A stretch of 33,430 nt of DNA from Dysgonamonadaceae bacterium (GTDB lineage: Bacteria; Bacteroidota; Bacteroidia; Bacteroidales; Azobacteroidaceae). The notes beneath the pieces were generated by a model that was given only the letters and a program-made list of their open reading frames with translations, was not told where the DNA came from and made no database searches. Shown piece by piece: positions 6,754-33,430 of this stretch (the first letter of the stretch is position 1; each line of letters begins with the position of its first letter). Location: the NCBI GenBank assembly GCA_031275735.1, contig JAISOJ010000114.1, positions 1 to 33,430 on the forward strand, read 5' to 3'. The translations under genes and the position numbers were made by a program.

Positions 6754-6814
6754 AAGCGCCTATAATTTATAATTCATAAACTTAATAATTCATAACTCAA
6801 TAATTCATTCACAT

Positions 6815-8047
6815 ATGAAACAATCATGTTTAACAAACACCCAAGAGCATGAAAACGGGTATTCATTTACCCGTCAACTTGTCAACCCGTTTACTCGTCA
6901 ACTCGCCAACTCGTCAACTCGATATCTGTCGCTTCTTTTTCTTCTCCTCCTGTTGACAGCCTGCCATACCGAACAGGCAGCCAATCGCCACGATGAAGAA
7001 AATGAAGAAAACGCACATCTTCCGGGCGCGGTCCATTTCAGCCGTCAGCAACAGGAAAAAATCCCCTTTACCATCGCCCCCCCTATGGTAGAGCCTTTAG
7101 GAGAACTTATCCGGACAACTGCCCGAATAGAATCTTCCCAAGCAGACGAGGCAATCATTTCCGCTCGCGTTCCGGGCATTGTTTTTTTCTCCGGAACTCA
7201 TCTGACGGAAGGACGAAACGTCGCCGCCGGACAAACCTTATTCTCGGTTTCCGGCAAGGGACTAACCGCCTACGATTCCGGCGTCCGTTTGGCAGAAGCC
7301 AAAGCAAACTACGCAAAAGTCAAAGCAGATTATGCCCGGGCACAAGAACTGATTCGGGAAAAAATAATATCCGAAAAAGACTTTATGCAAACAAAAACAG
7401 ATTACGAAACAGCCAAAGCCGTTTTCGACAATTTGTCGCGCAACTTCACGCAAGGCGGACAACAAATTTCCGCACCATTTGCCGGCTACCTGAAACAACT
7501 ACTGGTAGAAAACGGCCAATTCGTCGAAGAAGGCCAAGCTTTGGCCATTGTCTCCAAAAACAAAACCCTCCTGCTGATAGCCGACGTTCCGTCGCGCCAT
7601 GCAAAATTGCTGCCCCTCCTTTCCACAGCAACAATTCGCGGCGAAGGCAAAACCATGTATTCCCTGGAAGAACTGAACGGAAAAATATTGTCGTTCGGAA
7701 AATCCCTGAACAAGGACAACCGACTGATTCCCGTCAGTTTACAGATAGACAACCGAACAGGACTACTGCCGGGAGCCTTTGTGGAAATATTTTTGAAAAC
7801 CCAAACAGGAAATCCCGTAACAACAATCCCCGTTTCGGCTTTAATCGAAGAACAAGGCCTGTTTTTCGTTTATGTACAACTGGATCCCGAATCCTTCGAA
7901 AAGCGGGAAGTAACTCTGGGGGCGACCGACGGAATCCGCGTGGAAATCCGTTCCGGTCTGGACAACAACGAGCGGATAATTACACAAGGAGCGATGGCAG
8001 TTAAACTCGCACAATCCGCCGGCACACTTAACACACACGAACACTAA
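6815..8047 (+). CDS. RND efflux periplasmic adaptor subunit (CusB/CzcB-like lipoprotein)
   Basis: This is a membrane-fusion protein linking an RND pump to an outer-membrane channel. The lipobox LLTAC places the lipidated Cys at residue 50. After it come a barrel-sandwich half (IISARVPGIVFF), an alpha-helical hairpin rich in Ala, Lys and Glu (about 155-210), the second lipoyl half (ISAPFAGYLKQLLVENGQFV) and a beta-barrel with a C-terminal GLDNNERIITQGA segment. The N-terminus is odd: about 36 residues precede the hydrophobic core, and residues 18-36 are encoded by an octanucleotide array (6866-6921). No in-frame ATG exists between the array and the lipobox, so the ATG at 6815, which belongs to a repeated module, is the best start. 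It is 11 bases from the pump gene. The metal is not determined. Confidence 0.92.
   Translation: MKQSCLTNTQEHENGYSFTRQLVNPFTRQLANSSTRYLSLLFLLLLLTACHTEQAANRHDEENEENAHLPGAVHFSRQQQEKIPFTIAPPMVEPLGELIRTTARIESSQADEAIISARVPGIVFFSGTHLTEGRNVAAGQTLFSVSGKGLTAYDSGVRLAEAKANYAKVKADYARAQELIREKIISEKDFMQTKTDYETAKAVFDNLSRNFTQGGQQISAPFAGYLKQLLVENGQFVEEGQALAIVSKNKTLLLIADVPSRHAKLLPLLSTATIRGEGKTMYSLEELNGKILSFGKSLNKDNRLIPVSLQIDNRTGLLPGAFVEIFLKTQTGNPVTTIPVSALIEEQGLFFVYVQLDPESFEKREVTLGATDGIRVEIRSGLDNNERIITQGAMAVKLAQSAGTLNTHEH
6866..6921 (+). repeat. Octanucleotide tandem array, 7 units, inside the adaptor gene
   Basis: Seven contiguous 8-bp units fit the pattern (T/C)(C/T)(A/T)AC(C/T)(C/T)G; typical units are TCAACTCG and TTTACTCG. 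It is translated in frame as FTRQLVNP followed by FTRQLANS, an eight-residue period from three 8-bp units. A second array of the same units is at 15099-15178. Confidence 0.9.
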
Positions 8048-8057
8048 ACAAAAATCC

Positions 8058-11000
8058 ATGCTAAACAAAATAATAAATTTTTCACTAAACAACAAACTAT
8101 CCATACTGTCAGCCACAGTCCTCCTGCTCGTCTTCGGCATTTACACAGCAAATAAAATGGACATTGACGTTTTTCCGGACTTGACGGCCCCAACCGTAGT
8201 GGTGATGACCGACGCCGGCGGAATGGCCGCCGAAGAAATCGAACGCCTGGTCACTTTCCCCATCGAAACAGCAGTAAACGGCGCAACCAATGTCCGGCGA
8301 GTACGTTCCACCTCCAAACAAGGCAATTCATTCGTATGGATAGAATTTGACTGGGAAACAGACATCTTCCAAGCACGCCAGATTGTAAGCGAAAAAATTG
8401 CGACACTTGCGAGCATCATGCCGCAAGGAATACAACCGATTTTAGCGCCCCAATCAAGCGTAATGGGAGAAATCTTTTTCATCGGACTACAATCCGATTC
8501 GACGGACGCAATGAATTTGCGAATCCTCGCCGAATGGGTGATCAAACCGGCAATTCTGGCGACAGGCGGCGTATCGCAAGTCACCATTATCGGCGGCGAC
8601 TACAAGCAATACCAGGTCTTGGCCGATCCGGCGCGAATGAATTACTACAAAGTCTCGCTGAACCAATTGGCAGCCATTTGCTCAACAATCAGCGAAAACT
8701 CGTCGGGCGGCATCCTTCGGGAATACGGAAACGAATATTCGCTTCGCGGAATAGCCCGGACGTCCGATTTGGACGAATTGGGACATTCGGTCGTAAAGAT
8801 GAACGGCGACGCCCCCGTATACCTGAACGACGTTGCAGAACTGAAAATCGGAGCAGCCCCCAAGATGGGCGACGCTTCGCAAAATGCCTCACCCGCAGTA
8901 ATACTTTCGGTATCAAAGCAACCCGACGTCAACACCTTGCAGGTAACAAAAAAAGTGGAACAAAGTTTGGAAGAATTACGGAAAACCCTGCCTCCGGACG
9001 TGCGGATGGATACGCAGATTTTTCGCCAGGCAGACTTTATCGAAACCTCCGTCAACAACGTGACACGCGCCCTGATCGAAGGAGCCATTTTCGTAATTCT
9101 CATCCTCTTCCTCTTCCTGAGCAGCCTCCGTACGACGGTAATATCAGTCGTCGCCATTCCGCTCTCGTTGCTGGGAACAGTGATTGCAATGCACTTGCTC
9201 GGCATGAACATCAACACAATGAGTCTGGGCGGAATGTGCATCGCCATCGGTTCGCTGGTAGACGATGCAATCATTGATGTGGAAAACGTATACAAGCGTT
9301 TGCGGCAGAATCACCTGAAACCAAAATCGGAACGGGAATCCCCTTTTCGGATTGTATTCGACGCATCGCGCGAAATTCGAGCATCCATATTACACGCAAC
9401 CCTGATAATTATCGTCGCATTCATTCCCCTGTTTTTCCTTTCGGGAATGGAAGGACGCCTCCTGAAGCCGTTGGGAATCGCATATATCATTGCACTTTTC
9501 ATGTCGCTGATTGTTGCCATGACACTCACGCCATTGCTTTGCCAAATGATGCTGTCCAACGATAAATATTTGACCAAAAACAAAAAAGAAGCCTGGCTCG
9601 CACGAAACCTTTCCCGTTATTACGAACATTCCCTGAAAAGAATATTCAAGCACAAAAAAACAGTACTATTGGCGGCAGCCGCCCTGTTCACCCTGTCGCT
9701 GGTCTTGTTTTCGAGGATGGGAAGAGGCTTTCTACCCGAATTTAATGAAGGCGCCCTGACTATTTCCGCCATATGCAAGCCGGGCGTTTCGCTGGACGAA
9801 TCGATCAATTTGGCTACCCTCGTGGAAAAGGAATTGCTGACGATTGCGGAAGTACGGACGACCGCCCGACGGACAGGACGCGGAGAACTGGACGAACACT
9901 CCATGCCGTCCAATGCAACGGAAATCGAAGTAAAATACGTATTGGACAAGCGTTCCGCCGAAGCATTCATGGCGGAAGTACGGACCAAACTATCCGCCAT
10001 ACCCGGCCTCGCCTTCACCGTCGGCCAGCCCGTCGGCCACCGAATCGACCACATCCTGTCGGGAACACGCGCCAATATCGCCATTAAACTCTTCGGCAAC
10101 GACCTGACACGCCTGTTTACCCTGGGCAACCAAATACAAAGCGCCATTGTAAACGTTCCGGGATTGGTCGACGTAAGCGTGGAACAACAAACCGAAGCGC
10201 CGGAAATTCAAATACGCGCCAACCGGCGGATGCTTGCCCGTTATGGAATTACAATAGAAGAATTTAACCGTTACGTCGCTTTAGCATTTTCAGGCGAAAA
10301 ACAGACGGAAATCTTCGAAGGCCAGCGAAGATTTGATTTGATCTTGAAATTGCATCCCGACTACACAACCTCGTTGGACGCTATCGGTTCGGTGCTGATT
10401 GACACAGGCGACGGCGGAAAAGTGCCTCTCGAAGAAGTAGCGGAAATCGTTTCCACCACAGGACCGAATGTGGTCAGCCGGGAAAACGCACAACGACGAA
10501 TCGTCATCTCGGTCAACGTAGCCGGTCGCGACGTAGGCAGCGCCGTAGAAGAAATTCAATCGCTCATCGCTTCCAAAATTACCCTGCCCGAAGGCTACCG
10601 CCTGGAATACGGCGGACAATTCGAGAGTGCGCAAAAAGCCTCCCGCATATTGCTGCTGACCTCGTTGCTGGCGATCGGCATAATTTTCCTTCTACTATAC
10701 CAGGAATTTAAAAATCCCCGTCTCGCAGCGGTAATTCTGATCAACCTGCCGTTGGCCCTGATCGGCGGAGTACTGGCCGTATATTTCACTTCCGCGGTAA
10801 TAAATATTCCGGCAATAATCGGGTTCATCACCCTGTTCGGAATAGCCACGCGCAACGGTATCCTGCTCGTATCCAACTACCAGCGCCTGAAAGAGCAGAA
10901 AATTCCCTTGTACGAACGCATTATCCGCGGGTCGACCGACAGGCTGAACGCAATCCTGATGACCGCCATTGCCGCCGGACTGGCCTTGCTTCCGATGGTT

Positions 11001-11147
11001 TTCAACGGCGACAAGCCCGGCAACGAAATTCAAAGCCCTATGGCGACAGTGATTCTGGGAGGATTGCTAACTTCCACGCTGTTGAATATTTATATAGTAC
11101 CGATATTGTATCAAACAGTCGAACGGAACGCAGACAACGCGAAATAG
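8058..11147 (+). CDS. CusA/CzcA family heavy-metal efflux RND transporter
   Basis: A full-length RND pump of 1029 residues. The N-terminal helix is followed by DIDVFPDLTAPTVVVMT and the porter domain, then membrane segments at about 335-500 and a second half that mirrors the first (helices about 862-1020). The TM4 charged motif VDDAIIDVEN (401-410) supplies the Asp and Glu residues used for proton relay. By my alignment from memory, the three methionines that bind Cu/Ag in E. coli CusA fall on S570, the N619 area and H665, so this is unlikely to be a typical Cu(I)/Ag(I) pump; a divalent metal is more likely. It takes metal from periplasm or cytoplasm and works with the adaptor and channel on either side. 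The gene is GC-rich compared with its flanks. Confidence 0.95.
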   Translation: MLNKIINFSLNNKLSILSATVLLLVFGIYTANKMDIDVFPDLTAPTVVVMTDAGGMAAEEIERLVTFPIETAVNGATNVRRVRSTSKQGNSFVWIEFDWETDIFQARQIVSEKIATLASIMPQGIQPILAPQSSVMGEIFFIGLQSDSTDAMNLRILAEWVIKPAILATGGVSQVTIIGGDYKQYQVLADPARMNYYKVSLNQLAAICSTISENSSGGILREYGNEYSLRGIARTSDLDELGHSVVKMNGDAPVYLNDVAELKIGAAPKMGDASQNASPAVILSVSKQPDVNTLQVTKKVEQSLEELRKTLPPDVRMDTQIFRQADFIETSVNNVTRALIEGAIFVILILFLFLSSLRTTVISVVAIPLSLLGTVIAMHLLGMNINTMSLGGMCIAIGSLVDDAIIDVENVYKRLRQNHLKPKSERESPFRIVFDASREIRASILHATLIIIVAFIPLFFLSGMEGRLLKPLGIAYIIALFMSLIVAMTLTPLLCQMMLSNDKYLTKNKKEAWLARNLSRYYEHSLKRIFKHKKTVLLAAAALFTLSLVLFSRMGRGFLPEFNEGALTISAICKPGVSLDESINLATLVEKELLTIAEVRTTARRTGRGELDEHSMPSNATEIEVKYVLDKRSAEAFMAEVRTKLSAIPGLAFTVGQPVGHRIDHILSGTRANIAIKLFGNDLTRLFTLGNQIQSAIVNVPGLVDVSVEQQTEAPEIQIRANRRMLARYGITIEEFNRYVALAFSGEKQTEIFEGQRRFDLILKLHPDYTTSLDAIGSVLIDTGDGGKVPLEEVAEIVSTTGPNVVSRENAQRRIVISVNVAGRDVGSAVEEIQSLIASKITLPEGYRLEYGGQFESAQKASRILLLTSLLAIGIIFLLLYQEFKNPRLAAVILINLPLALIGGVLAVYFTSAVINIPAIIGFITLFGIATRNGILLVSNYQRLKEQKIPLYERIIRGSTDRLNAILMTAIAAGLALLPMVFNGDKPGNEIQSPMATVILGGLLTSTLLNIYIVPILYQTVERNADNAK

Positions 11148-11182
11148 TTGTTTTTACCCGTATTTCAAAACAATTTCAAACA

Positions 11183-12346
11183 ATGAAACGATTATTATTT
11201 TTATTTATCACTTTTCATGCCTTGAGCATGTATGCACAACCGTCCTTCCTGGAACAGATTGAACGGAACAACACGGTTTTATCGGCCTTCCGCAAGCAAT
11301 TGGACGCGGAAAAAATTGCCAACAAAACCGGCATCTATCCGAAAAATCCCGAAATGGAATTTCACTACCTTTGGGGAAACCAATCTGTTCCGGGCGACCG
11401 CGTGGATTTTTCAGCCACGCAAACCTTTGATTTCCCCACAGCTTATTATTACAGGAAAAAAATTTCCGACACTCAAAACCGGCAGGTAGATTTGAAATAC
11501 CTGATCGAAAGGAAAAACATCCTCCTGGAAGCGCAATCCACCTATATCCGTCTGATTTACCAAAACGCCCTTTCCCTGAAATGGGAAGAACGTCTGGATC
11601 AGGCGCGTCAGACGGTTTCGGCCTATCAATTCAAAATGGATAAGGGCGACGCCTCGGCTTTGGACCTTAACAAGGCGAAAATCAATCTGTTGAACGTACA
11701 AAAGGAATACGACTCATCCCTTGCAGAAGAAGATTTTCTCCGCGCCGAATTGAATCGCCTGAACGGAGGCATCCCCCTCGACCTGCCATTGGATTTTCCG
11801 TCGATATGGCTTCCCGTCGATTTCGAGCAATGGTACAGGGAGCAACAGGAAAAAAATCATCTCCTGCAATATTTACAACAGGAAACGGCGCTGAGTCGGG
11901 AAAACGGGAAATTGCAACGTTCGCTGAATCTTCCCGGATTTTCGGTCGGATACATGAGCGAAAAGGTATCGACCGAACAATTTCGGGGAATTACGCTCGG
12001 TATTTCCATTCCTTTGTGGGAAAACAAAAACAAGGCGAAGCAAATAAAGGCCCGCACGCTGGCCGGAGAGGAAAGCGAGTCGGACGCCCGTTTCCGCCAT
12101 TACAACGAAGCAAAAGCGCTGTACGGGAAAGCCGTCCGGTTGCAGAAAATCGTTGACGAGTACAGGAGAAGCGAATTGCCGGACAATACGTCGGACTTGT
12201 TGAAAAAGGCGCTGAATGCCGGCGAGATCTCGCTGATCGACTACCTCTTCGAATGGGACATTTACTACGAATGGATCAGCAACCGGCTCGAAAGCGAACG
12301 CGACTTGCGGCTGACGGCAACGGAACTGATGCAATGGGAGTTGTAA
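11183..12346 (+). CDS. TolC/CusC-like outer-membrane efflux channel
   Basis: This 387-residue protein begins with a signal peptide (MKRLLFLFITFHALSMYAQ) and has the duplicated OEP layout. Each half has long Gln, Glu and Lys-rich helices (about 100-195 and 240-375) and short beta-strand parts such as MEFHYLWGN and LPGFSVGYMSE, then ITLGISIPLW. It is somewhat shorter than typical TolC proteins but within the range of CzcC/CusC-like proteins of Bacteroidetes. It forms the outer-membrane duct of the efflux complex made with the two genes before it, 36 bases downstream of the pump gene. GC content and operon position match the rest of the efflux island. The metal specificity lies in the pump, not here. 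Confidence 0.9.
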   Translation: MKRLLFLFITFHALSMYAQPSFLEQIERNNTVLSAFRKQLDAEKIANKTGIYPKNPEMEFHYLWGNQSVPGDRVDFSATQTFDFPTAYYYRKKISDTQNRQVDLKYLIERKNILLEAQSTYIRLIYQNALSLKWEERLDQARQTVSAYQFKMDKGDASALDLNKAKINLLNVQKEYDSSLAEEDFLRAELNRLNGGIPLDLPLDFPSIWLPVDFEQWYREQQEKNHLLQYLQQETALSRENGKLQRSLNLPGFSVGYMSEKVSTEQFRGITLGISIPLWENKNKAKQIKARTLAGEESESDARFRHYNEAKALYGKAVRLQKIVDEYRRSELPDNTSDLLKKALNAGEISLIDYLFEWDIYYEWISNRLESERDLRLTATELMQWEL

Positions 12347-12354
12347 CATCACTT

Positions 12355-12387
12355 ATCGCGTCAAATTCGATCAACTTTTGGCGCGAT
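12355..12387 (+). terminator. Inverted repeat after the efflux operon, possible terminator
   Basis: ATCGCGTCAAA (12355-12365) pairs with TTTGGCGCGAT (12377-12387), ten of eleven positions, around an 11-base loop. It starts nine bases after the channel gene stop. No run of T follows, so intrinsic termination is uncertain; RNA 3'-end stabilisation is equally possible. Confidence 0.4.
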
Positions 12388-12458
12388 GGGTATGGAAAAT
12401 AATTAAGGATACCGTATAATATTTTTATCCGGCTGTAGGTTATATCAATTATTTCATG

Positions 12459-12466
12459 TAAATTTG
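12459..12466 (+). promoter_or_regulatory. Putative -7 box for serC
   Basis: TAAATTTG matches TAnnTTTG, 44 bases before the serC ATG. The region just upstream has no clear TTG box at 19-21 bases. Confidence 0.45.
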
Positions 12467-12510
12467 TGCTTCGATTTTTTTCAAATAACATTTAAATAAA
12501 CAAAAGTATT

Positions 12511-13578
12511 ATGAAAAAGTACAATTTCAATGCGGGACCTTCTATCCTCCCAAAAGAAACGGTAGAAAATACTATCAAAGCAATTGAAAATTTTGCAGGA
12601 ACCGGTTTAGGCCTTATGGAAGTAAGCCACCGCTCTAAAGAATTTCAAGCTGTGGTAGATGAAACTGTTGCTTTGTTTAAAGAATTGTTGAATATTCCCG
12701 AAGGCTATTCCGTTTTATTTCTTGGTGGAGGCGCCAGTTTGGAATTTTGTATGGTTCCTTATAACTTATTAGAGAAAAAGGCAGCTTATCTAAATACCGG
12801 AACCTGGGCTAATAAAGCGCAAAAAGAAGCTAAATTATTCGGGGAAGTGGTGGAAGTAGCTTCTTCCAAAGAAGCCAATTATACCTATATTCCCAAGAAT
12901 TACGCTATTCCGGCTGATGTGGATTATTTCCATATCACCACTAATAACACTATTTTTGGAACGGAAATTCATACGGATATCAACTCTCCGGTAACTTTGG
13001 TCGCCGATATGTCGTCCGATATTTTTTCCCGCCCGGTAGATGTGAGTAAATACGGATTGATTTATGGCGGAGCACAAAAGAACCTTGCCCCCGCGGGCGT
13101 AACTTTTGTTATTGTAAAAGAAGACATTCTGGGTAAAGTAAGTCGTCCGATTCCAACCATGTTGGATTATCGGACACACATCAAAGACGGTTCTATGTTT
13201 AACACGCCCCCGGTTCTTCCTATCTATGCCGCAATGCAAACCTTGAAATGGTTAAAAGCCTTAGGAGGAGTCGAGGAAATGTATAAAAGGAACAAGGAAA
13301 AGGCCGGACTTCTTTATGACGAAATCGACCGCAATAAATTGTTCAAAGGAACAACTGCCATAGAAGACCGTTCTTTAATGAACATTTGTTTCGTAATGAA
13401 CGAAGAATACCAATCTTTGGAAGCTGAATTCTATCAATTTGCTACTTCAAGAGGAATGGTAGGAATTAAAGGTCATCGTTCGGTAGGCGGTTTCCGGGCG
13501 TCAACATATAACGCCTTGCCGAAAGAAGACGTTGTTGCATTGATTAAAACCATGCAAGAATTCGAAAAAACACATTAA
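12511..13578 (+). CDS. serC: Phosphoserine aminotransferase
   Basis: SerC converts 3-phosphohydroxypyruvate and glutamate to O-phosphoserine, the second step of serine synthesis; it can also act in pyridoxine synthesis. The 355-residue protein starts with the family signature [12 protein letters not shown] and continues with [10 protein letters not shown] and [11 protein letters not shown]. The PLP-binding lysine is K190 in [13 protein letters not shown], and the C-terminus has [14 protein letters not shown] with the phosphate-binding residues. It is cytoplasmic. In many Bacteroidetes serC is followed by serA; here pgk follows 15 bases later, so the pair supplies glycolytic 3-phosphoglycerate chemistry and serine branching from one transcript. 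The gene has a lower GC content than the efflux genes before it. Confidence 0.96.
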
Positions 13579-13593
13579 TTTATATTTTTTATT

Positions 13594-14853
13594 ATGCAAA
13601 CAATTGATAAATTCAATTTTTCAGGACATAAAGCATTTGTGCGCGTAGATTTTAACGTTCCTTTAGACGAAAATTTCAATATTACCGATGATACTCGTAT
13701 TCGAGCAGCTATGCCAACGTTAAAGAAAATTCTTTCGGACGGAGGCAGCTTAATCATCGGTTCTCATTTGGGACGTCCTAAAGGAATTGATGATAAATAT
13801 TCGCTCAAACACATTTTATCCCATATTTCCGAATTGTTGGGCAAAAATATAGCATTTGCTAACGATTGTTTGGGAAAAGAAGCCGTTGAAAAATCGGCAG
13901 CTTTGAAAGCGGGAGAAGCTTTGTTGTTGGAAAACCTCCGTTTTTATGCAGCCGAAGAGGGTAAGCCCCGCGGATTAAAGGAGGATGCTGCCGATGAAGA
14001 AAAAGCGATAGCGAAAAAAACCGAAAAAGCCAATCAAAAAGAAATGGCTAAACAATTAGCCTCTTATGCAACGGTTTATGTAAATGATGCTTTTGGTACG
14101 GCACACCGTGCCCATGCTTCTACTGCAATTATTGCCGATTACTTTGACAATGATCATAAATTATTCGGATACCTGATGCAAAATGAGATCGACGCTGTTG
14201 AAAAAGTATTGAAAGATACAGCTCGTCCTTTTACAGCTATTATGGGCGGCTCAAAAGTCTCTTCTAAAATCGATATCATCGAAAATTTGTTGACTAAAGT
14301 GGATAACCTGATTATTGCCGGTGGAATGACCTACACGTTTACCAAAGCGTTGGGAGGGAAAATAGGTAATTCCATTTGTGAAAACGACAAATTGGATTTG
14401 GCTTTAAGCCTAATTCAAAAAGCCAAAGATAACAAAGTCAACCTTGTACTGGCGATTGACGCCAAAGCGGCAGATCGTTTTAGCAACGATGCTAAAACTC
14501 AATTTGTTTCAGTTGACGCCATCCCCGACGGATGGGAAGGATTGGACATCGGTCCGGAAACCGAAAAGAAATTTGCGACCGTTATCGAAAATTCCAAGAC
14601 CATCTTATGGAATGGCCCTACCGGAGTATTTGAGTTTGAAAACTTTACAGGAGGTTCGAAAGCCGTAGGGCAAGCAATTGTTAAAGCGACAGAAAAAGGC
14701 GCTTTCTCGCTTGTCGGCGGAGGCGATTCGGTAGCATGCGTAAACAAATTTGGCATTGCCAATAAAATGAGCTATGTTTCTACCGGCGGAGGCGCTTTAC
14801 TGGAATTTATCGAAGGGAAAGAATTACCGGGAATCAAAGCTATTCGCGGATAA
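13594..14853 (+). CDS. pgk: Phosphoglycerate kinase
   Basis: Pgk transfers the acyl phosphate of 1,3-bisphosphoglycerate to ADP in glycolysis and runs backwards in gluconeogenesis. Clear motifs are [73 protein letters not shown] and the nucleotide-site [16 protein letters not shown] with [10 protein letters not shown] at the C-terminus. It is 419 residues, longer than the classical 390-400 because of a Lys/Glu/Ala-rich insertion (about 125-150) that I recall from other Bacteroidetes enzymes. It begins 15 bases after serC and is probably co-transcribed. The following repeat element (14866-14990), a strong palindrome, could end its transcript. All catalytic motifs are intact. Confidence 0.97.
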
Positions 14854-14865
14854 ATCTTTACAAGT

Positions 14866-14990
14866 GCTGTCTCAAAAGCCCCTTGTGGTGTGCTTGTCAT
14901 TGCGGGCTTGACCCGCAATCCCCTGAAAGACAACGCTCGTTTTTCGGGAGATCCCGCGTCAAGCGCGGGATGACGCACTTTTGAGACAGC
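14866..14990. mobile_element. MITE-like palindromic element, 125 bp, with 13-bp terminal inverted repeats
   Basis: The perfect terminal repeats are GCTGTCTCAAAAG (14866-14878) and its complement (14978-14990), which look like insertion-sequence ends. Inside are two hairpins: TTGCGGG/CCCGCAA (14900-14918) and ATCCCGCG/CGCGGGAT (14951-14971), whose loops cttga and tcaag are complementary, so the element also folds on itself as a whole. It codes for nothing credible. No convincing target-site duplication is visible. It lies 13 bases after pgk and could end that transcript. Confidence 0.75.
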
Positions 14991-15011
14991 CCCTTAATTC
15001 TTATTTCTACC

Positions 15012-15134
15012 ATGAGAGATTCCTGTTTAACAAACGTCCAAGAGTATGTAAATAAGGAAATTGTATTGGTTTCCGCACTCGCAATATCGAAGCGTTTGTT
15101 TACCCGTTTACTTGTTTACTTGTCAACTCGTTAA
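15012..15134 (+). CDS. SCLTN-type short ORF upstream of the fucosidase, 40 aa
   Basis: The ORF encodes MRDSCLTNVQEY at its start and ends in a stop within an octanucleotide array. Its first 12-14 codons match the start of the efflux adaptor gene (MKQSCLTNTQEH) at 33 of 42 bases; the array is read in the same frame in both (LFTRLLVY here, FTRQLVNP there). I do not recognise the peptide. It may be a leader peptide, a decoy of a dispersed repeat, or a remnant of a gene start. Translation is unproven. It ends 52 bases before the fucosidase ATG, so coupling or attenuation is possible but speculative. Confidence 0.35.
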   Translation: MRDSCLTNVQEYVNKEIVLVSALAISKRLFTRLLVYLSTR

Positions 15135-15178
15135 CTTGTTTACTCGTCAACTTGTTTACTTGTCAACTCGTTAACTTA
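15099..15178 (+). repeat. Octanucleotide tandem array, 10 units, before the fucosidase
   Basis: Ten contiguous 8-bp units such as TTTACTTG, TCAACTCG and TTAACTTG run to eight bases before the fucosidase ATG. Units vary mainly at positions 1-3 and 6-7, while the A, C and final G stay fixed. This is the same family as 6866-6921. It occupies the probable 5' leader and ribosome-binding region of the fucosidase. Confidence 0.9.
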
Positions 15179-15186
15179 ATTTACGT

Positions 15187-16482
15187 ATGAAAAAAATCAG
15201 TCATTTATCTATCTTTTTATTATTTGCAATCAATCTGTTGGGGCAAACGCAGAAACCTGATGTGAAATGGTTGGAAGAGGCTCGTTTCGGTATGTTTATT
15301 CATTTTGGACCTTACAGCGTTTTGGGTGATGGCGAGTGGGTAATGAACAACCGTTCTATAAAAGGATGCGATTACAACCGTTTGCAAAATTTATTCAATC
15401 CGCAAGCTTTTGATGCCAGGGAATGGGTGAAAATAGCTAAAGACGCCGGAATGAAGTACATCACTTTTACTTCCCGTCATCACGATGGATTCAGTAATTG
15501 GGATACCAAACAATCGGATTGGAATATTATGAATACTCCTTACGGCAAAGACCTGATCAAGCAACTGGCTGACGAATGCCACAAGGAAGGTATCAAATTG
15601 GTATTTTATTATTCGTTATTAGACTGGATGCGCTCCGATTATCAGTACGAAACCGGGCGTACAGGACAAAAAGCCGGTAGAACCGAAAAAAGTAACTGGA
15701 ATTCGTACCTCCGTTTTATGAAAGCTCAATTAACCGAGTTACTCACTAATTACGGACCTATTGCCGGTATTTGGTTCGACGGACATTGGGACCAAACTTC
15801 GCATGAAAACCGAACTTCGCACGAAACATTTGTAGATTGGCATTATCCGGAAATATACGATCTGATCCACCGTCTACAGCCGGAATGTTTAATCGCTAAT
15901 AATCATCATTTACCGCCATTTCCCGGAGAAAATTACCAGATCTTTGAAAGAGATGTCCCGGGAGAAAACAAATCCGGATTAAGCGGGCAAGAAGTTTCCT
16001 TTCTTCCATTGGAAACCTGCGAAACCATCAATAATACTTGGGGATTTTCAATCGCCGACAGCAACTTCAAATCGACGAAAGAATTACTTCAATTACTCAT
16101 CCGAACGGCAGGAAGCGGCGCTAACTTATTATTGAACACCGGTCCGATGCCAAACGGTAAAATTCAACCCGAATGTGTGGAACGCCTGCAAGAAATGGGT
16201 GAATGGTTGAGCCGATACGGCTGTACCATTTATGGAACGCGACAGGGGGTAATACCGCCTCAAACGTGGGGAGTCAGCACTGCCAAAGATAATACCCAAT
16301 ATATTCATATATTGGATAAAAATATGGCTACGTTAACAGTAAAAATACCGGATATCAAATCGGCTAATTGGGTAAATAGCGATTCAAAATTGACCTGGGA
16401 AAAGGACCAAAAGAGCGGAGAAGTAACATTTACATTCAACGAAAGATTAGACGACATTGATTCAATAATAGAAATTAAATAA
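15187..16482 (+). CDS. Alpha-L-fucosidase, GH29 family
   Basis: This exported glycoside hydrolase of 431 residues has a signal peptide (about 1-20, ending LLGQ) and a GH29 (beta/alpha)8-type catalytic domain. Visible motifs are WLEEARFGMFIHFGPYS at the start of the barrel, FTSRHHDGFSNWDT (96-107) and GIWFDGHWD, in which D198 is the likely nucleophile. Later, LLLNTGPMPNGKIQ closes the catalytic domain and a short beta-rich tail follows. It removes terminal alpha-L-fucose from host or plant glycans in the periplasm or at the surface. No SusC/SusD pair is nearby, so this is not a complete polysaccharide locus. The start is preceded by an octanucleotide array and an SCLTN short ORF. The acid/base residue cannot be assigned by eye. 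Confidence 0.93.
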   Translation: MKKISHLSIFLLFAINLLGQTQKPDVKWLEEARFGMFIHFGPYSVLGDGEWVMNNRSIKGCDYNRLQNLFNPQAFDAREWVKIAKDAGMKYITFTSRHHDGFSNWDTKQSDWNIMNTPYGKDLIKQLADECHKEGIKLVFYYSLLDWMRSDYQYETGRTGQKAGRTEKSNWNSYLRFMKAQLTELLTNYGPIAGIWFDGHWDQTSHENRTSHETFVDWHYPEIYDLIHRLQPECLIANNHHLPPFPGENYQIFERDVPGENKSGLSGQEVSFLPLETCETINNTWGFSIADSNFKSTKELLQLLIRTAGSGANLLLNTGPMPNGKIQPECVERLQEMGEWLSRYGCTIYGTRQGVIPPQTWGVSTAKDNTQYIHILDKNMATLTVKIPDIKSANWVNSDSKLTWEKDQKSGEVTFTFNERLDDIDSIIEIK

Positions 16483-32945: not shown

Positions 32946-33430
32946 ATGAACAAATCAATCTTATTTTCAATCTTTTGCGCCTTTTGCGTACTGACCGGAG
33001 CCGCCCAATCCTACTCCGGCGGCTCCGGCACGGAAGCCGATCCCTATCGTATCTCTTCCAAAGCAGATATGGAGGCGCTGGCGACGGCTGTAAACAGTAA
33101 TACCGCTTATTCTATCAGTAAGTATTTCTTGTTGACACAGGATATTACCGATGAGGTTACTACTATTGTCGGTAACAGTAGTTATCCATTCTACGGTACT
33201 TTTGATGGCGGCGGACATTCGATAACTGTAAATATCAATACAACTACTACCTATGCGGGCGTTTTTGGCTACATTTACAGCGCTACGGTTAAAAATCTGG
33301 GCGTAACAGGAAGTATTTCTTCTTCTTCTTCTTATTATTCTTCTTCTTATTCTGGCGGAATTTGCGGCTATGCCTCTTCAAGTAGCATTAGCAACTGTTA
33401 TAATACAGGAAGTATTTCTTCTTCTTCTTC
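32946..33430 (+). CDS. Secreted GLUG-repeat surface protein, Ser-rich (partial, runs off the window)
   Basis: From the ATG at 32946 the frame stays open to the window end (161 full codons). A signal peptide (MNKSILFSIFCAFCVLTGAA) is followed by YSGGSGTEADPYRISSKADM, an entry motif I recall from Bacteroidetes adhesin-like secreted proteins. A beta-helix-like region follows (PFYGTFDGGGHSITVNI, TYAGVFGYIYSATVKNLGVT). The last part contains a GLUG-type unit (GGICGYASSSSISNCYN) bounded by runs of serine from TCT microsatellites. It probably sits on the cell surface; sorting by type IX secretion is possible, but the C-terminus is outside the window. Confidence 0.85.
   Translation, partial: MNKSILFSIFCAFCVLTGAAQSYSGGSGTEADPYRISSKADMEALATAVNSNTAYSISKYFLLTQDITDEVTTIVGNSSYPFYGTFDGGGHSITVNINTTTTYAGVFGYIYSATVKNLGVTGSISSSSSYYSSSYSGGICGYASSSSISNCYNTGSISSSS
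33306..33430 (+). repeat. 99-bp repeat unit with TCT microsatellites in the GLUG gene
   Basis: A segment starting ACAGGAAGTATTTC at 33306 recurs exactly at 33405 for 26 bases, up to the window edge. The offset is 99 bases, or 33 codons, one GLUG unit plus its serine linker. Runs of TCT (five at 33318-33332) encode serine and can slip in whole codons without breaking the frame. Confidence 0.8.

Follow-up and report, generated by a model that had tools for sequence, protein, structure and literature searches.

The window analysed here is a stretch of 33,430 nucleotides (contig C62; JAISOJ010000114.1, positions 1 to 33,430 of the forward strand) from a Bacteroidales metagenome-assembled genome (MAG; Dysgonamonadaceae bacterium, GCA_031275735.1) of 2.43 Mb, 75.9% complete and divided into 114 contigs. 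Two of its genes, encoding an efflux adaptor and an alpha-L-fucosidase, carry at their start a copy of the same short repeat, in which an ATG-initiated core of 14 codons is followed by an array of octamers. The initial annotation had interpreted this arrangement as either a translated leader or a dispersed element carrying a start codon. The parts of the two copies are as follows.

6815..6856, + strand: core of element copy 1, 14 codons from the ATG (MKQSCLTNTQEHEN); model match with E 5.3e-17
6827..6839, + strand: copy 1 hairpin, TGTTT-AAC-AAACA; pairing maintained by compensatory changes among subfamilies
6865..6920, + strand: copy 1 octamer array, 7 units, within the open leader frame
6815..8047, + strand: fused coding sequence (CDS) composed of the element leader, a lipoprotein-like signal and an HlyD/CusB-type adaptor (Pfam)
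15012..15053, + strand: core of element copy 2 (MRDSCLTNVQEYVN), a diverged copy; model match with E 1.2e-11
15024..15036, + strand: copy 2 hairpin, TGTTT-AAC-AAACG
15012..15134, + strand: copy 2 leader open reading frame (ORF), 40 codons, with its stop in its own array at 15132-15134
15098..15177, + strand: copy 2 octamer array, 10 units
15179..15192, + strand: copy 2 right end (ATTTACGT), then the host gene's ATGAAA; 41 such sites in the genome, control 0
15187..16482, + strand: alpha-L-fucosidase CDS, native start retained with its ATG at 15187, where core-less orthologues begin

Both copies were present where they had been reported, with cores identical at 33 of 42 bases and arrays of 7 and 10 octamers lying in the same register relative to their own ATG (offset mod 3 = 2). 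The arrays presented at most one mismatch per three-unit match, and 100 shuffles gave a chance expectation of 0.01 array matches and 0.00 core matches. The proposed fusion of copy 1 to the efflux adaptor was also borne out, since its leader is open into a 410-residue adaptor CDS in which the native ATG and the right end are not recognisable. For copy 2 the array does reach the vicinity of the fucosidase ATG, as proposed, but the leader frame ends after its 40 codons, 52 bases 5' of that ATG.

Searches of the whole MAG outlined a dispersed family. A 24-base pattern allowing up to 3 mismatches identified 31 copies, against 0 for the reversed control pattern, and a sequence-only model of the 51-nt core returned 67 matches at E<=0.01, 65 of which were read individually; these counts rest on one incomplete MAG, in which array lengths may be misassembled. 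The typical copy consists of ATGAAACAWTCATGTTTAACAAACACCCAAGAGCATGAAAATGAG, a repeat cargo, the right end ATTTWCRY and the host gene's own ATGAAA, with a core of about 42 nt. The commonest form in this genome is about 90 bp long and others are longer, the distance from ATG to ATG being exactly 90 bases in 26 of the 50 copies that have a downstream ORF. The cargo is made of octamers in this species, and its type varies among species.

The left boundary of the element is sharp. Across 30 copies, the information content of the AT-rich, unique upstream sequence does not exceed 0.8 bit per column, base -1 (1.23) excepted, and it is clearly higher in most columns of the core, starting with the ATG. 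A pyrimidine (C or T) occupies base -1 in 97 of 103 copies, compared to 147 of 264 background starts. On the right side, the right end followed by ATGAAA was found at 41 genome sites (control 0). A core match adjoins 35 of them and is lacking at the other 6; in two of these six (L233 and L237) a decayed core is visible by eye. In 64 of 81 copies, the nearest ATG downstream that opens a long ORF belongs to an ATGAAA, compared to 38 of 90 exported-like and 33 of 175 other background starts; ATGAAA is the commonest start hexamer. The cargo is bracketed by two 10-nt arms (GAAAATGAGT and ACTCATTTTC), of which at least 8 positions pair in 32 of 49 own copies; the observed total of pairing was reached by 22 of 2000 shuffles of the partners. 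The genome holds many further copies, and their placement with respect to gene starts is not random. Octamer arrays were also found without a core match. One element lies directly before another in L109, and two subfamilies are stacked, by eye, in L315. Also by eye, L130 and L141 present reverse-complement octamers followed by forward arrays within one open leader, an arrangement that could form long inverted repeats. The gene at L233 (start at 1003), which we take from its sequence to be thymidylate-synthase-like, is preceded by a decayed element that has lost its ATG and carries an octamer array.

Orthologous genes in congeners were used to examine the corresponding starts. Over 35 orthologue loci, the core profile detected the core in the two window genes only. 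Nothing significant was found over 17 congener fucosidase starts, 12 of which open with ATGAAA and 5 with another ATG in that place, and the end of a phosphoglycerate kinase upstream is shared by the best fucosidase orthologue (84% identical) and three others, as judged by eye. Likewise, the profile yielded nothing significant over 14 adaptor orthologue loci, and those with a readable start open with short signal sequences, often MKKI; the adaptor of genome G026 bears an element of another subfamily, which the core profile missed. Flanks fail to align by eye between species, so that base-exact empty sites were not obtained and support for insertion rests on gene starts and gene order. Different copies mostly sit at unrelated host genes, and some families recur, among them SusD and GH2. 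The 67 matches, the variety of their host genes and the core-less orthologous starts in congeners substantiate the dispersed half of the original proposal.

The leader frame is kept open into the host gene. A usable right end and an ORF of at least 60 codons were available for 44 of the 65 copies read, and in 38 of these 44 an open leader continues in frame into the gene. Stop-free leaders were observed in 41/44 cases in frame 0, compared to 0/44 and 2/44 in the other two frames, and copies with ATG-to-ATG lengths other than 90 are in frame in 12 of 17 cases (p=0.002). The five copies out of frame (5/44) are those of L031 (fucosidase), L125, L142, L145 and the second copy of L032. Octamers reading GTTAAC occur in two registers (24/89 and 11/56) and never in the register giving TAA (0/56), a bias that mostly restates the open state of fused leaders.

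Leader ORFs of at least 80 residues were present in 53 of 65 copies (49 once L043, L125, L132 and L145 are dropped), and ten fused genes of this genome, the window adaptor included, have no later in-frame ATG within their first 75 codons, which suggests that the element ATG is probably the start codon of these ten genes. The start codon that the initial annotation attributed to the repeat is hence probably used. In the window adaptor the sole in-frame TTG/GTG lies at codon 47, inside the hydrophobic stretch. The native ATG has become ATA or ACG in 3 of 44 copies, with the fusion still open, and in L030 the element ATG was lost and the native ATG kept.

It is the nucleic acid and the open reading frame of the core, and not the peptide, that look conserved. 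A dN/dS analysis, which the initial annotation had suggested for the peptide, comprised 41 and 14 of the 65 copies, leaving out distant ones, and gave 0.85 for the main subfamily (41 copies) and 1.17 for the second (14 copies), arguing against a conserved functional peptide. Stop-making changes in the core are nonetheless scarce, with 2/171 in the main subfamily (about 13 expected) and 0/44 in the second. Codons 5-9 read CLTNT, CISHT, CILYT, CLVNA, CNIYT or CKSCA depending on the subfamily, while the 13-nt segment TGTNN-NNN-NNACA stays paired through its TTT/AAA, TAT/ATA and TAA/TTA states as a hairpin with a stem of 5 bp. In this segment 93.1% of cells are paired, compared to at most 57.9% in slid versions, and its covariation score exceeded those of all 500 shuffles. 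Support for a strong RNA fold of the whole element was unconvincing, with a z-score of -1.78 for the 88-nt consensus.

Fused products are predominantly exported-like. Under a simple hydrophobicity rule, and leaving out copies with no ORF or with a fused ORF shorter than 130 residues, 64 of 69 fused products are exported-like, compared to 103 of 265 background ORFs. By eye, the hydrophobic stretch of three of the five exceptions (L109, L130, L141) lies at the limit of the scored segment or past it, L080 is borderline and L132 is a doubtful gene. Among 19 proteins scanned with Pfam, matches included glycosidases, SusD lipoproteins, outer-membrane protein barrels, thioredoxin-like and trypsin-like proteins and an outer-membrane efflux protein. 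Residues encoded by the array seem to contribute to the signal peptide itself in some genes, as in L130 (...LVYLFTCLLVYSLAGC). Elements also precede apparently cytoplasmic genes (L087, L136, L156, L168, L175, L288 and L233), all of them unfused in the element's frame, owing to a stop in the leader, an out-of-frame leader or the loss of the element ATG. From their sequences we assume L087 to be NAD-kinase-like, L136 MurG-like, L156 urocanate-hydratase-like and FTCD-like, L168 and L175 response-regulator-like and L288 ATPase-like.

The element extends beyond this genome. Model matches were obtained in 14 of 58 genomes searched, comprising 12 of 34 within the genus (own genome included) and 2 of 24 outside it; among the 12, five show one match each, which in one case is weak, and both genomes outside the genus have weak matches. 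A looser pattern matched in 8 of 38 genus genomes, with 0 control matches in all 38. The exact pattern occurs in six contigs of the GTDB collection, with titles including Candidatus Symbiothrix sp., Dysgonamonadaceae, Prevotellaceae and Bacteroidales bacterium; these we take to be termite-gut bacteria. An order-level search of 393 genomes returned matches at E<=1e-5 in 3 (own included), an undercount since 15 candidates were scored per genome and 15 of the 67 own matches were recovered. In relatives, similar ends surround other cargo, namely TTTTTAG-type arrays, a GGATTGCGGGTCAAGCCCGCAATGAC palindrome or a G+C-rich palindrome. In genomes G004 and G026, L282, L288, L294 and L301 represent a subfamily beginning ATGAAACCCGYATGTAAAAGTTGC, some copies of which bear, by eye, 9-bp inverted arms (AACCCGCAT/ATGCGGGTT). 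Genome G101, from another family, presents two distant core-like copies (L316 and L317) with longer spacers before ATGAAA, which may overlap the end of the preceding ORF.

Overall, these results are consistent, with a probability of about 0.7, with a dispersed, probably mobile element residing 5' of mostly ATGAAA-initiated genes, with a left end made of ATGAAA and a hairpin, an ATTTWCRY right end, exchangeable cargo and an encoded peptide under no selection. The evidence hence fits both of the options first proposed, leader and dispersed element, at once. The site, the boundaries, the copy number, the core-less starts in relatives, the open frame and the hairpin covariation can be read from the sequences directly. 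Such an element would target YATGAAA at translation starts, so that the upstream region of the host gene would now feed the element ATG. An in-frame leader would leave the gene usable as long as the protein tolerates being extended at its N-terminus, an extension expected in exported proteins to lengthen the n-region of the signal peptide; alternatively, the leader may stop before the native ATG or the element ATG may decay. The peptide sequence itself would be under no selection, and slippage of the octamers, whose 8 bp are no multiple of 3, could shift the frame. The element would persist at starts because exported proteins tolerate a longer n-region, with other genes having to stop or silence the leader. 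A stronger and tentative version of this proposal is that of a mobile class specialised for gene starts, which would recognise YATGAAA, rebuild that target at its left end and so permit stacking, carry exchangeable cargo and act as a portable start and signal-peptide builder. Octamer residues would then appear to form the n-region or the hydrophobic core in some genes, and octamer slippage could make some genes phase-variable.

Several observations weigh against the proposal of a mobile element at gene starts. The right-end motif includes ATGAAA, and the count of 40 ATGAAA starts in 44 copies is thus partly built in, the figure of 64/81 being less biased. The empty starts all come from other species, with no filled and empty pair from the same species. 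Exported-like products differ weakly between fused and unfused copies (64/69 vs 18/24, p=0.03), the in-frame excess among non-standard lengths (12/17) is modest as support, and copies share ancestry, so that p-values overstate their independence. Four of the 53 open leaders (L043, L125, L132 and L145) are not clearly fused to a gene, and in-frame TTG or GTG codons at which translation might initiate are present in some fused genes. The cytoplasmic-looking L136 lost the element ATG, yet another core ATG, in a different frame, opens into it. The hairpin test rested on 29 variants picked by the analyst, and one own subfamily (TGTAT...ACACA) breaks one of its pairs. Finally, a search for PF01797 (Y1_Tnp) in the own genome, 75.9% complete, returned one weak partial match and none over the cut-off, and an IS200/REP transposase was accordingly rejected as mobiliser.

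Exact placement at starts, arrays of varying length with 5 of 44 copies out of frame and a maintained hairpin could also point to a module selected by the host, that is, a portable translation-initiation or mRNA element in which octamer slippage switches the frame and generates phase variation. We consider this unlikely, as the host genes are functionally diverse, the orthologues read manage without the element (the G026 adaptor excepted), copies of variable length are mostly in frame (12/17) and the cargo differs among species. Still less probable is a functional leader, in the sense of a selected targeting or regulatory N-terminus for exported proteins positioned like the extended signal peptide region (ESPR) of type V secretion proteins. 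The abundance of exported-like fusions (64/69) and the open frame would suit it, but the dN/dS values of 0.85 and 1.17, the divergence of codons 5-9 among subfamilies in which the DNA hairpin is kept, and the presence of unfused elements at cytoplasmic-looking genes do not; a conserved functional peptide was for these reasons (dN/dS near 1, differing subfamily peptides) rejected as the principal explanation.

The least credible alternative is that core and array are independent repeats, joined by chance or by recombination at ATGAAA microhomology. It would account for octamer arrays without a core match, for the 6 of 41 right ends lacking a core, for the exchangeable cargo types and for the frequency of ATGAAA as a start hexamer. 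It is at odds with the occurrence of the left core and the right end around different cargos in several species, with a single sharp boundary across 67 core matches and with the 10-nt arms bracketing the cargo in paired form (32/49).

The ends of the putative mobile element were examined further. In six intact copies no pairing joins the two outermost ends, and the cargo of four of the six is flanked by a 9-10 nt pair linking a segment at about +36 with the right end. The bases flanking the element on the left and right in 59 copies are T/T in 38, C/C in 6, mixed T/C in 12 and other in 3, a match (Fisher p=0.013, 56 T/C cases) that fits target duplication or a target-mimicking element end alike. 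A search of IMG/VR with one exact core pattern and a tblastn search of the leader against plasmids and phages (E<=0.01) returned no match, and a phage or plasmid origin was rejected on this basis.

As the initial annotation had anticipated, no named family was found for the element in titles and abstract starts among the best literature matches listed, with subscription papers thinly covered. REP and IS200/IS605-type elements carry a conserved short hairpin at a fixed spacing from one end, a feature shared by the present element near one of its ends; unlike the IS200 pattern, ATGAAA is found at both ends. The ESPR likewise adds an N-terminal stretch ahead of the signal peptide, but it is a conserved peptide found on a single protein class, unlike the variable leader peptides described here, which precede proteins of mixed classes. 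Rickettsia palindromic elements (RPE), of about 150 bp, are described as ten families with 44 integrations (PMC10969869); like them, the present element is a small repeat lying in frame in many unrelated genes (53/65 leaders, 49 after drops) and contributing extra residues to host proteins. Unlike the RPE as described there, it is located at the start codon, supplies an ATG of its own and encodes an apparently unconstrained peptide, with dN/dS of 0.85 and 1.17 and variable codons 5-9 in place of a conserved encoded sequence. ERIC/RU repeats, also small, MITE-like (miniature inverted-repeat transposable element) and fused in frame to genes, have been reported from 24 annotated loci of enterobacteria, where the fusion concerns either the N- or the C-terminal end (PMC2759123). 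Compared by that description, the present element differs in having about 49 fusions in one genome, at the starts of mostly exported proteins, and fixed ATGAAA boundaries.

Start codons are normally regarded as fixed features of genes. In this one genome, about fifty genes appear to have had their start taken over or duplicated by a dispersed repeat. This has consequences for gene calls, N-terminal annotation and signal-peptide prediction in the genus. It also offers a natural experiment on the tolerance of the export machinery for an additional N-terminus, and on the persistence of a repeat inside coding sequence without a selected peptide.

Other features of the window include two tRNAs, the only matches of an Rfam scan at gathering thresholds, in which the element matched no RNA family. 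A MITE-like segment of 125 bp with perfect 13-bp inverted ends (GCTGTCTCAAAAG) occupies positions 14866-14990, just 5' of element copy 2. A separate heptamer array (ATAATTC) at 6762-6808 lies directly 5' of copy 1, and AT-rich arrays resembling it precede, by eye, some congener gene starts. Lastly, TTC-rich tandem repeats are found at 33317-33430, within a Ser/Tyr-rich ORF that leaves the contig end.

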